A DNA stretch of 45,970 nt, taken from positions 1 through 45,970 of the forward strand of contig NZ_CYPR01000019.1 in the NCBI RefSeq assembly GCF_001408515.1, in the 5' to 3' direction. Positions within the stretch are counted from its first letter, which is position 1. Every line of letters starts with the position of its first letter. A program made the position numbers and the translations under genes. The DNA comes from Jannaschia seosinensis. Its GTDB lineage: Bacteria; Pseudomonadota; Alphaproteobacteria; Rhodobacterales; Rhodobacteraceae. Of the stretch, positions 32,894 to 42,856 are shown in pieces. Under the pieces are notes generated by a model. That model did no database searches and had not been told where the DNA came from. It worked only from the letters and a program-made list of their open reading frames with translations.

Positions 32894-33102
32894 CAGCGGT
32901 CCCCGCGCGAGAAGCCGGCGAGACCTGCGACCGGCAACGGCCGGCTTGTTCCGGTGATCGCGCGCTCGATGGTCCGGATGCGCGCGAGCAGGTCCTCGGC
33001 CGAGCCATAGTCGACGGACTTGCCGTCATAGCTGACGCGCGTCGTGCCGCTGGCATAAGCGCGCCGGAGCGCGGCCAGTTCAGCTTCGGTCCAGTCCGCC
33101 AT
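32893..33102 (-). CDS. gpW-like head-tail joining protein
   Basis: 69 aa: MADWTEAELAALRRAYASGT, then RVSYDGKSVDYGSAEDLLARIRTIERAI, the helix-hairpin-helix pattern of lambda gpW. It binds below the portal and is needed for DNA retention. ATG 33102 shares TAATG with the terminase stop, which fixes the start; an upstream in-frame ATG at 33111 is less likely. Confidence 0.85.
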   Translation of the reverse strand: MADWTEAELAALRRAYASGTTRVSYDGKSVDYGSAEDLLARIRTIERAITGTSRPLPVAGLAGFSRGDR

Positions 33103-35108
33103 TAGAACCATCCTTCACGTCGCCCGAGCCAGTCCGAGCGCCGTTTCGTCTGCGGCGCGGAGGCGGGCCTGTTGATCAGCCCCGCGGCATCCGCCGCGGT
33201 CGGCGCCCGCCCGAGCTGATCCTCGAGGTCGCGCCATTTCTCGTCGGGCCAGCGGTCCGCGCCCGCGATCCAGGCGGCAGCGCGGGCATAGACCCGGCAG
33301 TCCAGCGCCTCGTTGCGCTCGCGCAGCTTCTGCCATTCCAGCCGGGCGAAGCCGCGCTTCGTGCGCACCGTCACCAGCTGCTCGGCCACGAACTGCTTCA
33401 GCCATTCGTTCTCGACCCAGTGCGGAAGGTGCACCGAGCCGGGCGGGAACGCCGCCCCGTCGGCCATCTCCTCCTCGGTCGGCCGCGCCAGCCGCAGGAA
33501 GCGGTAGGTCTCGGCCTTGAAGGTCGACACCGCCACCGTCCAGAGCCGCGCGCCGCGCCGCAGCCGCTTGCCGCCCTCGGTCGCATCGACGAAGGTCGGC
33601 CCCGACACCGGGCTCGAGCGGTTGAACCCCTCGACGCCCTTGACTGGCGATACCTGCGCAAACCCGTGCGCCCGCGACCAGGAATAGACGGCCGGGGCCT
33701 CGTAGCCGGTGTCGATGGCGAGCCGCGCGATCCTGAGATGCGCGCCACGTTCATGCAGCCAGCTTTTGTCCAGCAGCACGGTCAGTTCCGACCAGGCGTC
33801 ATGCCGGTCCGGCCCGCCCTCGATGACGACGTGATCGACGAGCCAGCTTTCCAGTCCGCGGCCCCAGGCCCAGACGTCGACCTCGATCCGGTCCTTCTGC
33901 ACGTCGGCCCCGGCAGTCAGGAACAGCCCACCCGCAGGCACCGTGCCGGACGTCCAGCGCTCGCGCCGGTCGTAGAGCCGCTGCCAGTCGGGCGCTTCCC
34001 CGGTCTCGACCCATGTCTCGCCGAGTATCGTGTTGCGAAAGGCCTTGATCGCCTCGTCGGACCCCTGCGCCGCGTCCCATGCCCGCACGATCCGCTCCCA
34101 GCTCAGCCAGCCGATCGGCGAATAGAGCGCCGAGAGGTGATATCCGACCGTGGTCGGATCGGCGGCCGTGGCGGTCGCCCGCCATTCGCCGCCCTCCAGC
34201 ATGGCCGTCTTGTGGTGTTCCGCGATTGCCGCGTCGCAGACCTCGCAGTGATACTCCGCCGTCTCCGGGCGGCCCTTCTGCCAGCGCAGCCGGTCGAACT
34301 TCAGCCACTGCATCGCGCCGCAATGCGGGCACGGCACGAAGAAGCGCCGTTGATCGCTCGCCTCGAACTCTCGCTCGATGCGGCTCAGCCCCCGGATCGT
34401 CGGAGTCGAGACCAGGAATACCTTGCGCCGGTGCGCGAAGGTCAGCGACCGCGCCTCGGCGAGCGTGACCGGATCGCCTTCCTCGTCGGCCGAGGCCGGA
34501 TAGGCGTCCACCTCGTCAAGGAAGATGTAGCGCGCCGGCGTCGAGCGAAGCCCCACCGCCGAGTTCGCCCCGGTCATGATCAGGATGCCGCCCGCGAACT
34601 CCTTCGACAGCATCGTGTTGCCGGCGTCGCGCGAGCGCGCTGGCTTGACCCGCGACCGCAGCTCCGGGCTCTCGTCGATCAGCGGGTCGATCCGCTGGCG
34701 CGAGTTGCGCTTCGCGAGTTCCACCGTGGGCTGGACCGCAAGCATCGGCCCCGGCGCCTGGTGGATCGCGAAGCCGATCCAGTTGTTGCCGGCCTCGGTG
34801 GCGCCGACCTGCGCGGCCTTCATGAAGACGATGCGCTGCGCGGCGTTCCCCGGCGACAGCGCGTCCATGATCTCGCGCGTGTAGGGCGTGCGGGCCGTGC
34901 GGTATCGCCCCGGCTCGGCCGACGCGCGGGGCGCCAGCATGCGGTGCCGGTCCGCCCATTCCGAGACGGTCAGGTCCGGGTCGGGCCGGAGCCCGGCGCC
35001 CCAGGCGCGCAGGACCTCCGCGACGCCATCGAAGTCGGTCAGGGCATCTTCGGCGTCACCTGAACTCGGGCCGGACCTCGGCGAGATCGTCGAGGTGGGC
35101 GCGTACAT
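33102..35108 (-). CDS. terL: Terminase large subunit, lambda gpA family
   Basis: 668 aa ATPase-nuclease that cuts and packages phage DNA. The ATPase has a variant Walker A KAAQVGATE (97-105) and Walker B RYIFLDEVDAYP (D198/E199). A zinc-finger-like pair CPHCGAMQW and CEVCD follows. The C-terminal nuclease includes DVQKDRIEVDVWAWGRG and LAIDTGYEAPAVYSWS. The ATG at 35108 lies 53 bases inside terS, an unusually long overlap, so a slightly later start is possible. Confidence 0.95.
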   Translation of the reverse strand: MYAPTSTISPRSGPSSGDAEDALTDFDGVAEVLRAWGAGLRPDPDLTVSEWADRHRMLAPRASAEPGRYRTARTPYTREIMDALSPGNAAQRIVFMKAAQVGATEAGNNWIGFAIHQAPGPMLAVQPTVELAKRNSRQRIDPLIDESPELRSRVKPARSRDAGNTMLSKEFAGGILIMTGANSAVGLRSTPARYIFLDEVDAYPASADEEGDPVTLAEARSLTFAHRRKVFLVSTPTIRGLSRIEREFEASDQRRFFVPCPHCGAMQWLKFDRLRWQKGRPETAEYHCEVCDAAIAEHHKTAMLEGGEWRATATAADPTTVGYHLSALYSPIGWLSWERIVRAWDAAQGSDEAIKAFRNTILGETWVETGEAPDWQRLYDRRERWTSGTVPAGGLFLTAGADVQKDRIEVDVWAWGRGLESWLVDHVVIEGGPDRHDAWSELTVLLDKSWLHERGAHLRIARLAIDTGYEAPAVYSWSRAHGFAQVSPVKGVEGFNRSSPVSGPTFVDATEGGKRLRRGARLWTVAVSTFKAETYRFLRLARPTEEEMADGAAFPPGSVHLPHWVENEWLKQFVAEQLVTVRTKRGFARLEWQKLRERNEALDCRVYARAAAWIAGADRWPDEKWRDLEDQLGRAPTAADAAGLINRPASAPQTKRRSDWLGRREGWF

Positions 35109-39161: not shown

Positions 39162-39357
39162 GGCGCGCCTCCTGTTCCCGCTTGCCGTAGAGCCGCTCGC
39201 CGAGTTGGCGCACCAGCTCTCGCTCCGGCCAGGTCAGGCGGTCGTCGTCGACGGCGACGGCCAGCAGGCCCTGTTCCTTCCAGCCGTCGCGCTTGACCTC
39301 GTCAGGGTTGCGGCGGTGACCGCCGTAGCCCTTGGGCGTGAACCGCATGCCGCTCAT
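39154..39357 (-). CDS. Small phage protein of unknown function
   Basis: 67 aa from ATG 39357: MSGMRFTPKGYGGHRRNPDE, VKRDGWKEQGLLAVAVDDDRLTWPERELVRQLGERLYGKR. It overlaps the RuvC-like stop as ATGA and the DUF6362 start, so it belongs to a tightly coupled gene set. No family recognised. Confidence 0.7.
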   Translation of the reverse strand: MSGMRFTPKGYGGHRRNPDEVKRDGWKEQGLLAVAVDDDRLTWPERELVRQLGERLYGKREQEARHG

Positions 39358-39872
39358 TGCACACCTCCCCGGGTCTCCAGCGCCCAGAGCAGGATCGCGA
39401 TGGCGTCGGCCTCGTTGTCGTCGGCGGGAGAGAAGCCGCGCGCTCGGGCGGCCGCCATCATGGCGTCCTTGTTCGCGTTGCCCTTGCCGGTGGCGTGGCG
39501 CTTGATGGTGCCGACCGGCACGCCCTGATAGGCGACGCCCGCGGTCTCCGCCCATGACGTCAGCGTGGCCAGCAGCCCGCCATACACATGCGCCGCGTCA
39601 GTCCCGACGTGCCTGCGCACTTCCTCGAAGTGGATGGCGGTGATGGCTCCGGCGTCGTTCGCCAGCTGCTCGAGCCAGCCCCGGAACCGCACGTAGCGCA
39701 TGCCCCCGCCGTCATAGCGGCTGGGCCGGAATGACACGGTGCCGCTGGTGATCAGACCGTCCGCAGCCTGCAGCGCCCAGCCAGTGGTGGTACCGAGATC
39801 GAGGGCGAGGATGACCGGCACGCCGGGGAACGGGGCGCTCATGGGTGTCGGGGTCGGAGATGCGTGGGCCAT
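39354..39872 (-). CDS. RuvC-like Holliday junction resolvase
   Basis: 172 aa from ATG 39872, behind AAAGGAGCC. RNase H-fold nuclease: ILALDLGTTTGWALQ with the first catalytic Asp (D25), IHFEEVRRHVGTDAAHVYGGL supplying Glu, and DDNEADAIAILLWALE with the terminal acidic residues. It would resolve branched phage DNA during recombination, replication or packaging, in line with its place behind the primase and nuclease genes. Confidence 0.87.
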   Translation of the reverse strand: MAHASPTPTPMSAPFPGVPVILALDLGTTTGWALQAADGLITSGTVSFRPSRYDGGGMRYVRFRGWLEQLANDAGAITAIHFEEVRRHVGTDAAHVYGGLLATLTSWAETAGVAYQGVPVGTIKRHATGKGNANKDAMMAAARARGFSPADDNEADAIAILLWALETRGGVQ

Positions 39873-39928
39873 GATGGGCTCCTTTCCGGTTTGCTGCTCG
39901 ATGGGGTGACGGGCGGGGCATGCGGGGC

Positions 39929-42856
39929 TCATGGATCGAGCTCCCTCAGCCAATCGGGGACGGGTGAACCTCGGGAACCTGCCGCGGGAGGTTCACATGG
40001 AGGTTCACACGCACAAGGCTCTGAATTCGCTGGGCTTTGTGAACCTCGCGAACCTTGTGAACCTTTTCCGGCATCATCCTTCGCATGTGCGTGCGCGCGC
40101 GCGTACGTAAGGGTTGGAAGAGGTTCACAAGGTTCACAAGGTTCACATTTGCCATTCTTATCAACGGCTTGATCGTGTGAACCTCGGTTTTGGAGGTTCA
40201 CACCCGCGCTCGGAGGTTCACACGCGTCGGGCCCTCGTGCGCCCGATTGCGGACGCGACGGTTGCTCCGAGACCTTCAGCTGCCATTTGACCGCCCTCCG
40301 AAACGTGCCCGCCTGCACCAGCCTGAGCGTCAGATCGCCCACCTTGAACACGCGGTCCCGCATCTTCTTGATGGCGATCCCGAAGCTGGTTTTCTGCGCG
40401 CGATCCGTGTGGCAGGTGATGGGGGGCGCCGGATCGCAGAACAGGGCGACGTCGAAGAGGTCGGCCGCGCCCACCTCGGCGGTCCCGAACCGGTCCCACC
40501 AGGCGGCGATGAAGGCGCTCCAGCCCGCGCCTTCGCTGTCGGAGGCCTCCATCATCTCGTCGAGATTGCCGAGGAAGCCGGGAATGCCCGCGACCTCGAG
40601 CACGCCGCCGACGACATGCGCCCAGTTCTCGAAGGAGCCGATGGTGCGCGCCCCGCGCGGCTTTCCGGCGGCGATCCACGCCTGGCACAGCGTGAGGCAG
40701 GCGGCGACCAGCCGGGGGCGGTTTGCGCGCACCCATGTCATCAGATCGGGATGGCGGAAGCCGGTGCGCTGCCAGGGGCGCTCCTCGTGCGGGTCGAGCC
40801 GGATGCGCAGGAGGCGGCGCGCCATCTCGTTGGAGAACTCGGGGTTGTTACCGGTGGCGATCCAGAGACAGCGGATCGGCAGCCGCGCCATTTCCGATGC
40901 GCCGAGGATCCGGTCCTCCCAGAAGGGCGCCGTCAGGGCGGCCGCGACGGCGGAGCTGTCGAGCTTGGCGCGCAGGTTGTCGATCAGCACGATCGCGGGG
41001 ATCTGGCGCAGCTTGGCGGTGACGCGCTTGCGCCATTCATCGTCGTCGCGCCCTTCAGTCATCACGCTCGCGCCTGAGCCGGTGAGGATGGTGGCCACGG
41101 CATCGACCATCAGCGTGGCGCCGGAGCCGGGGCTGGGCTTCTCGATCAGGTGCAGCGGCGTCGGCCCGTCGATCATGCCGCGCAGGAAGCCCAGCAGCAG
41201 CAGCGCGATCACATGCGCCATCTCGGCGGGGCCGACGAAGGGAAAGTCTCCCAGCAGATCCTCGCACAGGAGGCTGCGGGCGGCGGCAACCTCGGCGGCT
41301 GACGGCTTGGCCGGAATGGTCGGCACCACGAAGCCGGGAGTCGGGGCATAGAGAAGCCGCGCATCGGGATGATATCCCGGCGTGGTCAGCAGCGTGCCGC
41401 CGCGACCGAAGACGGGTGTGTTGACGATGCCCACCAGCACGGGCAGCGCGGGGTCGGGCGTGGCCAGCACGGATTTGACCACGGCGATCGGCGGCGGGGC
41501 CGCGACCAACTCGCCCTTGCCGTTCAGCTTCTTCCAGTGCGCCAGCCGCGCCAGCATGTGACGCAGCCGTTCCTCGGTGATCGCGGTGGCGACCGGGCGG
41601 CCTTCGTCGTCGGGCACCACCCATGTCGGCTGCCCGGCGAAGCGGAACACCCATGGCGTCCGGTTCGAGGCCATGAGCAGACTCCAGACCCGCTCGACCG
41701 AGCGGGCCAGATCGCCCTCGTCGGCGCGCAAGGTGGGGATGGCCTCGCCGCTGCCCTGATAGTTGACCGGCCTGTGCTGCCCGATCAGCAGCGTGGGCTC
41801 GGCCTCGGTGATGGCCTCCGCATCTGCGATCAGGGCGGCGATAGCCTCGGGCCCCTCGCGCAGCAGCAGGTCGTTGAAATCCTCGCCTTCCTCGGGCGGC
41901 AAGACGACGGCCACGTCGCGCCCTTGCGCGCGCAGGCGCCGGGCGGCGGCCTCGGCGGCCCGCAGACCGGCCCCGGAGGTGTCATTGTCGGCCAGGATCA
42001 GCACGCGCCGGACGCCAGGCGGTAGATCGACCTGTTCGAGGCCCGATGTCGACAACGTCGCCCAGACCGGCAGATCGGGGCATGCGGTCATCACCGCGAG
42101 CCCGGTCTCGATCCCTTCGGAAAGCGCAAGCCGATCACCGTCGCCGAGATCGGCGAGACGCACCGCGCCACCAGCCACTCGGCCCAGCATCTTCTTCGCC
42201 TTGTCGAGCGGCGCCTTGGTGACCGCCACCTCATCGGTGGCGAGGTAGCTGCGGTGCAGGCCGATGACCGCGCCATCGCGGTCGCGGACCTGTCCCAGCA
42301 TGGCCGGATAGCCGGTCTTCGTCTCCCAATGGGTAAGGTCGGGGTGAAACAGCAGATCGGCGGCCTCGGGCACGGTCAGGCCGCGTCCGGTCAGATACCG
42401 CGCGACCGGAGAGCCCGTGATCGTCTCCGCACCCGTCAGGATGTGCGCGATCTCCAGCGCGGGATCGCGCTTCAATGGGGGTGGCGTCGGCGGAGCGCGA
42501 CGTTCCGGCGCGCCGGGCGCAATGCCTGCGATCTCGGCCGCCTCGACGATCAGGGCCCGGCCGTCGAGCCCGGTCGCTTCCTCGATGGCGCTGATCGGAC
42601 CGCCGCCCTGATTGCCGTCGAAGTCGATCCAGTCGCCAGCATGCGCGCCGCGCAGGGTGATGACGCAGGAGCCGGTATTGCGCGGCGCGTCGCCCCGGAT
42701 GTTGGCGAGCCGCCACTCGTCGCCCGACCTGCGCCCGCGCGGAAACAGGCGTGGCACCCATATCTCGGCGGTCTCGCGAAGGCGCGCCACCACCAGATCG
42801 AGATCGTAGCGCAGAGGCTCGCCACCGAGCGGTTTGGCGTCGTTGAGGTCAAGCAA
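39929..42856 (-). CDS. Toprim primase/helicase-like replication protein with repeat-coded tail
   Basis: 975 aa. An N-terminal zinc-less primase-like part (GDEWRLANIRGDAPRNTGSC) precedes a Toprim domain with ALSEGIETGLA (E248/E250) and ILADNDTSG (D290/D292). An ATPase region follows, with a Walker A-like EKPSPGSGATL (about 572-582) and Walker B-like AIVLIDN (about 621-627), then GNNPEFSNEMARRLLRIRL as in DUF5906-like phage helicases. The last about 100 residues are low-complexity (CEPCEPCEP, GSQGSRGSQ) because the DNA there is an octamer array. It overlaps the helicase stop by 8 bases. Confidence 0.88.
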   Translation of the reverse strand: MLDLNDAKPLGGEPLRYDLDLVVARLRETAEIWVPRLFPRGRRSGDEWRLANIRGDAPRNTGSCVITLRGAHAGDWIDFDGNQGGGPISAIEEATGLDGRALIVEAAEIAGIAPGAPERRAPPTPPPLKRDPALEIAHILTGAETITGSPVARYLTGRGLTVPEAADLLFHPDLTHWETKTGYPAMLGQVRDRDGAVIGLHRSYLATDEVAVTKAPLDKAKKMLGRVAGGAVRLADLGDGDRLALSEGIETGLAVMTACPDLPVWATLSTSGLEQVDLPPGVRRVLILADNDTSGAGLRAAEAAARRLRAQGRDVAVVLPPEEGEDFNDLLLREGPEAIAALIADAEAITEAEPTLLIGQHRPVNYQGSGEAIPTLRADEGDLARSVERVWSLLMASNRTPWVFRFAGQPTWVVPDDEGRPVATAITEERLRHMLARLAHWKKLNGKGELVAAPPPIAVVKSVLATPDPALPVLVGIVNTPVFGRGGTLLTTPGYHPDARLLYAPTPGFVVPTIPAKPSAAEVAAARSLLCEDLLGDFPFVGPAEMAHVIALLLLGFLRGMIDGPTPLHLIEKPSPGSGATLMVDAVATILTGSGASVMTEGRDDDEWRKRVTAKLRQIPAIVLIDNLRAKLDSSAVAAALTAPFWEDRILGASEMARLPIRCLWIATGNNPEFSNEMARRLLRIRLDPHEERPWQRTGFRHPDLMTWVRANRPRLVAACLTLCQAWIAAGKPRGARTIGSFENWAHVVGGVLEVAGIPGFLGNLDEMMEASDSEGAGWSAFIAAWWDRFGTAEVGAADLFDVALFCDPAPPITCHTDRAQKTSFGIAIKKMRDRVFKVGDLTLRLVQAGTFRRAVKWQLKVSEQPSRPQSGARGPDACEPPSAGVNLQNRGSHDQAVDKNGKCEPCEPCEPLPTLTYARAHAHAKDDAGKGSQGSRGSQSPANSEPCACEPPCEPPAAGSRGSPVPDWLRELDP
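39964..40221. repeat. AGGTTCAC iteron array, candidate replication origin
   Basis: Eleven perfect octamers. AGGTTCAC begins at 39989, 40001, 40121, 40130, 40139, 40194 and 40214; GTGAACCT begins at 39964, 40039, 40057 and 40177. Degenerate copies start at 39973 and 40048. Triplets at 40039/40048/40057 and 40121/40130/40139 have a 9-bp period and opposite orientation. Between them 40082-40109 is 28 nt of unbroken purine-pyrimidine alternation (Z-DNA-prone). The AT-richer 40147-40176 follows. Confidence 0.8.

Follow-up and report, generated by a model that had tools for sequence, protein, structure and literature searches.

The stretch of 45,970 nucleotides studied here (positions 1 to 45,970 of contig NZ_CYPR01000019.1 of Jannaschia seosinensis, referred to below as the window) contains a minus-strand prophage primase gene whose last 300 nt, at the 3' end, hold a compact array of short repeats, or iterons. 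We consider it very likely that this array is the replication origin of the prophage, or an essential cis part of that origin, recognised by the C-terminal winged helix of the same primase whose gene encloses it. An origin inside a replication gene had been the leading idea of the original prediction, and the comparison of relatives, which is a comparison of sequences only, supports it.

Iteron array at the end of the primase gene

The octamer AGGTTCAC occurs in 11 exact copies, on either strand, all of them in the array and none elsewhere in the window. Dinucleotide shuffles of the window contain 0.49 copies on average and 3 at most, and none of 100 shuffles reaches 11, which confirms that eleven perfect octamers in 258 bp are far above chance expectation. 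Two additional copies with one mismatch each stand in the 9-bp register, so that the array consists of 13 sites (Table 1); outside it, the window has no three one-mismatch copies within 150 nt. The two facing triplets proposed earlier are indeed opposed and have 9-bp spacing, but the left one is not perfect throughout, its middle copy being mismatched. An unbroken purine-pyrimidine tract of 28 nt does lie between them, its midpoint about 3 bp from theirs, and translation of the two orientations gives Cys-Glu-Pro and Gly-Ser-Gln/Arg, as had been read. A count across the host genome (3.83 Mb), suggested in the original prediction, gives 176 octamers, arrays included, against 27 for the reversed pattern. 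The two-octamer pattern AGGTTCACNAGGTTCAC is found there four times, twice in the window array and twice in the same array of a second prophage, on contig C196. In this second prophage (L005, 3756-6683) the primase frame has one in-frame stop just before the C-terminal domain; the frame of the domain and the array are intact despite the stop, and the iteron type is the same as in the window prophage.

Relatives were selected by protein, not by octamer, in two profile scans of viral contigs, from which the best 80 of 261 and the best 80 of 265 were taken; the seed proteins of the first scan had been found through the array. The resulting 115 loci are the first 80, 30 new ones from the second scan, L139, L144, L147, L141, and the window, which is counted twice (as itself and as L208); the other 50 loci of the second scan are on contigs already in the set, as judged by name. 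An array of one octamer type is present at 106 of these loci, eight others end at a contig edge before the array, and L263 is weak. At least five exact copies of a single octamer occur in 102 loci, and four more (L202-L204 and L209) have ten copies of a GTGAGG type. The 106 array rows comprise 81 that are distinct in domain plus octamer. Among 390 genomes drawn from the window's order, a close homologue is found in nine (own genome included), and nine of the ten homologue loci have the array, the tenth being a partial match.

A 13-site spacing template derived from the window (start-to-start gaps 20, 17, 38, 9, 9, 64, 9, 9, 38, 12, 16 and 9, with no constraint on the core gap) is a good fit to 84 of the 106 rows; the poorly fitting rows were typed from the octamer count alone. 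Among the 65 distinct rows that match the template well, 32 have a core gap of 64 and 16 a core gap of 70; the others range from 52 to 71. The octamer itself differs by lineage (GTGAACCT, GGGAACCT, GTGAGCCT, GGGGACCT, GGGAACGT and GTGAATGT, among others); 21 octamer strings were found, or 18 without two that are partly read and one that is a truncated copy of another. Most copies within one array are identical in octamer, and between lineages the copies switch together. The tail peptide tracks the octamer (CEP/GSQ with GTGAACCT, RER/RSP with GTGAACGT), while spacing and orientation are unchanged. The earlier proposal that DNA, not protein, is the conserved unit is strongly borne out by this concerted switching; the relatives were also checked for a constant peptide tail over unconserved octamers, and the opposite was found.

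The array is wholly within the reading frame in 95 of 106 rows and outside the primase frame in L144, L133, L365 and L132. In L144 it is located past the stop codon, and DWL still forms the end of the protein; the tail is therefore a translated DNA element placed between domain and tip. In L132 (2182-3977, Planctomycetales bacterium 10988), two separate, slightly overlapping open reading frames (ORFs) encode the helicase part and a small product that is winged-helix-like by our own reading, and the array comes after them, outside both.

Covariation of iteron bases with the winged helix of the primase

Each variable iteron position was compared with 826 alignment columns of the primase by normalised mutual information. 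Outside the tail, the best columns are 853/854/851 for position 2, 855 for position 4, 819/821 for position 5, 823 for position 6, and 827 for position 7, where several tail columns, which are the array's own translation, rank higher. Columns before residue 781 reach at best 0.47 for position 7 and 0.28-0.36 for the other positions. The 81 distinct rows were then cross-tabulated, with residue groupings chosen after the tables were seen. At position 2, G goes with His853 in 39 of 39 rows and T in 1 of 42; at position 4, A is paired with Ala855 (67 of 69) and G with Thr or Val (10 of 11); at position 5, A always has Gln821 (61 of 61); at position 6, all 63 rows with C have Thr823, all 9 with T have Ile, and 5 of 9 with G have Val; and at position 7, C is never accompanied by Lys or Arg827 (0 of 45), with G having Lys in 25 of 28 rows.

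These pairings recur along the tree. On a phylogeny built from the helicase part only (residues 360-780), the octamer types of the 81 rows need at least 40 changes. An independent-pairs test (79 rows after removal of two long branches; well-supported branches; means over pairings) yields same-direction to opposite-direction ratios of 10:0, 4.6:0, 9:0, 10:0 and 8.6:0 for positions 2, 4, 5, 6 and 7, with median p of 0.002, 0.06, 0.004, 0.002 and 0.004, respectively. The covarying residues fall in two places of the C-terminal domain, which was modelled alone by AlphaFold2 from 20 rows (mean pLDDT 85.8). The model has helices 3-21, 28-36 and 49-62 and strands 67-70, 73-83 and 86-94, i.e., the order helix-helix-helix-strand hairpin; residues 819-827 are within the third helix, and 851-855 are at the turn of the last hairpin. 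In the model, the covarying residues are thus placed as expected for a winged helix holding DNA, and the matches of the model among solved structures are winged helices, all tied. Covariation strongly supports recognition of the iterons by the primase's own C-terminal winged helix.

The residue-to-base rules were applied to 18 other loci. The planctomycete homologue L133 was the seed of a third scan (80 loci, 18 on new contigs); L133 itself was added to the new loci, and L433 was excluded for having no domain. Within 350 nt, the most frequent 8-mer fitting G(T/G)G....(T/A), with 5-14 copies, was taken as the observed octamer. The rules are right for 83 of 88 bases, compared with 78 for the octamer of the nearest training domain and 55 for the commonest base, and give the exact octamer in 13 of 18 loci, compared with 10 of 18 for the nearest domain. 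In numbers, this is a modest improvement over relatedness alone, and in three test rows (L379, L413 and L420) the domain is identical to one in the training rows. The most informative cases are L389, L432 and L434, L408, and L133. In the first three, the nearest domain is that of L271 (91-96% identical, with GGGAATGT), and both the predicted and the observed octamer are GGGAACGT; in L408, both are GGGGACGT, and the nearest domain has GGGAACGT. In L133, whose nearest domain is 43% identical and goes with GTGAACGT, prediction and observation agree on GTGAACCT, an octamer already known to the analyst before the rules were fixed.

Table 1. Features of the primase gene and its iteron array in the window
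Feature	Position	Strand	Remarks
13-site iteron array	39964..40221	both	GTGAACCT copies; layout matched in relatives
Array sites, + strand	39964, 39973 (1 mismatch), 40039, 40048 (1 mismatch), 40057, 40177	+	GTGAACCT
Array sites, - strand	39989, 40001, 40121, 40130, 40139, 40194, 40214	-	GTGAACCT
Left facing triplet	40039..40064	+	9-bp spacing; middle copy imperfect
Right facing triplet	40121..40146	-	9-bp spacing
Core between triplets, 56 bp	40065..40120		G+C 0.61
Z-prone unbroken alternating purine-pyrimidine tract, 28 nt	40082..40109		
Primase gene, 975 aa, DUF7146 and Toprim_3, then helicase-like region	39932..42856	-	3' end holds array
C-terminal winged-helix domain, residues 770-866	40259..40549	-	AlphaFold2 model and covariation; putative iteron-binding domain
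Third (recognition) helix codons, residues 818-831	40364..40405	-	covariation of 819/821 with iteron position 5, 823 with 6, 827 with 7
Wing tip codons, residues 851-855	40292..40306	-	851-854 covary with position 2, 855 with position 4
C-terminal tip PDWLRELDP	39932..39958	-	conserved, after array-encoded tail

Proposed function, alternatives and the alternating core

Domain and array appear to have been exchanged as one cassette by recombination. Between the window and L165, the helicase codons are mostly 92-100% identical (83% in one block of 60 columns), identity drops to 45-63% in the stretch that begins at the wing codons and reaches into the array, and returns to 88-100% beyond the gene; the recognition helix and iteron positions 5-7 are the same in the two loci, whereas the wing and position 2 differ. 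L175 and L194 show a more gradual fall, to 48-73%, and then a rise to 98-100%, and identity drops also between L194 and L187, in DNA that ends before any possible return. Among pairs with helicase identity of at least 95%, the mean identity of the domain is 0.95 when the octamer is the same (88 pairs) and 0.69 when octamers are different (80 pairs). Since domain and array are adjacent, a single exchange can replace both at once without losing the match between them; fast change of the two in place is a possible alternative to exchange.

In the mechanism that we propose, copies of the primase/helicase would bind iterons on both sides of the core, the third helix being responsible for reading positions 5-7 and the wing for positions 2 and 4; the two assemblies facing the core would open the DNA strands there, and the Toprim domain would prime the first strands. 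The array would be translated only because the gene continues to the conserved C-terminal tip, the array-encoded peptide being a passive linker. Physical binding, strand opening and initiation are all steps that we infer from sequence.

Several observations weigh against this reading or narrow it. At position 5, the 19 rows with G have Arg (9), Gln (8) or Asp (2) as residue 821; because Arg821 accounts for only 9 of the 19, residue 819, at which the Gln rows differ, is needed as well. Position 4 by itself misses p 0.05, G at position 7 occurs without Lys or Arg in L265 and L268, L217 and its copy L379 break the position-2 rule, and the rules mispredict two bases in L365 and one each in L366, L379 and L411. 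The pair L188/L196 has no clear identity drop or contrast. With the domain model as query, Foldseek returns nothing at E 0.001. In being G+C-rich, the core differs from those of P4 and of the phage-inducible chromosomal islands (PICIs), discussed below. The window primase has no match to primase_Cterm, D5_N, Pox_D5 or TIGR01613 (Pfam at E 0.001, NCBIfam at E 0.01), models that P4 alpha and the protein P0002 do match, so that by sequence it does not belong to the P4 family (TIGR01613/Pox_D5). In hhalign, the window domain is not significantly similar to P4-type domains or to P4 alpha, a weak test, as P4-type domains fare hardly better against P4 alpha.

Covariation, moreover, is evidence of recognition and not of its purpose, and as it speaks only for binding specificity, the primase-bound array could serve regulation or incompatibility (autoregulation, copy control, or exclusion of like phages) instead of initiation; two prophages with the same iteron type in one genome could interfere with or help each other. 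We regard this as improbable: the array is at the 3' end of the gene and not at a promoter, two facing sets around a core are the layout of an origin, and iterons 3' of the primase or initiator gene are a cis replication element in P4 and, in the portions of two reports cited here, origins in PICIs and the related Staphylococcus aureus pathogenicity islands, or SaPIs (PMC6092414, PMC7581432). A packaging, partition or repressor site for another phage protein would also be marked by clustered inverted repeats, and a GpA-type terminase gene (33102-35108) is about 5 kb away. The original prediction had ranked such sites below an origin, and we hold them to be very unlikely, because the iteron bases covary with the C-terminal domain of the primase: the best columns (the primase being the sole protein compared) are in its winged helix and follow helix and wing geometry, and the identity profiles tie the array to this domain. 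That the DNA repeats are a by-product of a low-complexity protein tail, as the arrays wholly in frame and the presence of the octamer pair in unrelated coding repeats (L119, L107 and L040) might suggest, is rejected for this family as next to impossible, given that the peptide changes at each octamer switch with spacing and orientation retained, that the two orientations encode different peptides, that four arrays are beyond the primase frame, and that iteron bases covary with the winged helix. These three coding repeats, among the matches listed in the first pattern scan, were set aside, as were other tandem families from that scan (e.g., L114 and L018).

The core between the triplets has its own conserved property. 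Over the 65 distinct well-fitting rows, which are related and do not amount to 65 independent cases, the longest alternating run averages 26.0 nt and is at least 14 nt in 58, compared with 6.05 nt in windows of equal length from the same genes and 12.4 nt when synonymous codons are shuffled; the comparison falls below the 5% significance level in 51 of 61 testable rows. Core letters vary between relatives while alternation is kept, and L133 has a 28-nt alternating run outside the primase frame. Judged from these comparisons, alternation of the 28-30-nt core tract is kept in most relatives beyond codon requirements. The short-run exceptions are L234, L235, L237, L238, L219 and L141 (12-13 nt) and L139 (reverse strand, array start 12114), where an iteron array is present and alternation extends over no more than 7 nt of the core. 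The tract is also missing from the arrays whose cores are AT-rich (L111, L134, L128, L132 and L365). The G+C content of the core is 0.46-0.69 across the 65 rows; in the window, positions 40101-40200 have 52-54% A+T, compared with 24-38% in most neighbouring 50-bp windows. Opening of the origin at the Z-prone tract is a guess. A fuller scheme, in which the 28-30-nt tract flips to Z-DNA under negative supercoiling and B-Z junctions between the facing initiator sets replace an AT-rich melting region, and in which the winged helix together with the array would be an exchangeable cassette of specificity with a simple residue-to-base code, is put forward tentatively, and we are more inclined to doubt it than to accept it as a whole.

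The remainder of the primase is less easily named. Pfam has no match for the helicase-like region that follows Toprim. By tblastn, residues from about 380 to 880 match phage proteins at 31-38% identity, mostly unnamed, with one annotated as P-loop ATPase-like, and calling the region a helicase is partly our own reading. The protein usually ends in DWLxE(L/V), and 91 of 103 rows have WL close to the C-terminus. The planctomycete homologue L133 (1805-4444) ends in DDDEIPF, which we take to resemble the C-terminal tip of single-stranded-DNA-binding proteins; the tips of this homologue, of the window family and of P4 alpha may recruit host replication proteins. Directly after the window primase gene is an ORF without a Pfam match (39354-39953, minus strand), presumably RuvC-like, and a similar ORF (ALDLGTTTGWA...) follows the primase gene in several relatives.

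Comparison with known replication origins

The lambda ori lies inside O, and the idea of an origin within a replication gene is shared with the window array, but layout and core differ; P4 crr and PICI origins are closer. In repABC replicons, oriV is inside repC and is described as a large, A+T-rich stretch midway along the gene, so that an origin within the coding sequence of the initiator, as we propose here, has a counterpart; facing triplets and a Z-prone core are not described in the cited portion of the repC report (PMC3155836). The origin of pRN1 is located 3' of its primase-helicase gene, according to the section of the paper cited here (PMC4234260).

Similar arrays accompany other types of primase. 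Pattern scans with 28 and 24 fixed bases found 12 and 26 viral stretches, and six genome records, two of them planctomycete. Facing GTGAAC-type pairs occur at or after P4-type primases in L111 (by family scan) and in L134, L135, L026, L143 and L128 (by alignment), and also at VapE-like (L126), DnaG-like (L142 and L145) and DUF5906 (L140) primases; the neighbouring gene in L137 has no family match. A single-protein P4-type query matched only its own contigs. Among 80 P4-type primase loci (L275-L354), 77 were testable, with 60 shuffles each: none of the 77 has three or more GTGAAC at the 3' end, and in 31 another 7-mer (AGTAACA, AGTAACC, ATTAACC, CTTCCAA and others) is repeated there above all 60 shuffles, one or two perhaps by chance. 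From these counts, 3' iterons look common in P4-type primase genes, with other sequences. The residue after Phe-Gly is Arg in L135 (GTGAACG), Met in L134 and L026 (GTGAACC), and Ala in P0002 (GTGAACC), a pairing of Arg versus Met/Ala with the iteron base that is suggestive, the cases being too few to count.

With P4 crr (X51522), the array shares GTGAAC-core repeats, 9-bp spacing, both orientations, and location at the 3' end of the primase gene, crr, with its type 1 repeats, ending 45 bp 3' of the alpha primase/helicase gene. P4 alpha binds origin repeats with a winged-helix domain, as stated in the part of the report cited (PMC4234260); the solved domain, 1KA8 (residues 671-770), is not among the structure matches listed for the window domain. 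The C-terminal ends are ...GDWLPKCDDPTTA in P4 alpha and ...PDWLRELDP in the window protein. There are also differences: crr is outside the gene and AT-rich, whereas the window core is inside the frame and mostly G+C; in each 120-bp repeat of crr, GTTCAC stands on the left and GTGAAC on the right, the reverse of the window; and P4 possesses ori as a second site.

PICI origins, as outlined in the portion of the report cited (PMC6092414), have two iteron sets that flank an AT-rich region 3' of the initiator (rep) gene, and SaPI Rep is described in the cited text as recognising its origin with a C-terminal domain (PMC7581432). Two iteron sets flanking a core at the replication gene are thus common to these islands and the window array; a similar reading of the iterons by the C-terminal domain of the window primase is strongly supported by the covariation. 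The PICI core, on this description, is AT-rich and 3' of the gene, and that of the window is alternating, mostly G+C, and inside the gene; no AT-rich region of the PICI kind was found between the sets in the window or in the 65 rows. The window also carries a large terminase gene, another difference from PICIs. In the PICI-like elements (PLEs) of V. cholerae, the DNA-binding domain of RepA_N and the origin covary and seem to be swapped as a module, a phage nuclease directed at the origin being thought to have selected for the swaps, as set out in the passages cited (PMC8263062). Those passages give two specificity groups in a protein of another kind, compared with 21 octamer strings and a residue-to-base reading here.

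Our best reading by analogy is that the element would work like a self-recognised origin of the P4/PICI type, without belonging to the P4 family. Among the papers listed in literature searches, none is closer by title and abstract than those cited, and we make no claim of absence from print. The element combines traits known from the systems above and is distinguished from them by its embedding in coding sequence, its Z-prone core, and the number of its specificities. With 81 distinct pairs of domain and octamer, these loci are a large natural experiment in which initiator and putative origin stay matched while both change, residues predict most bases in other loci, and the adjacency of domain and site lets recombination move the two together; the Z-prone core, retained in most relatives, raises the testable question of whether switching from B- to Z-DNA can serve to open the origin of a G+C-rich replicon.

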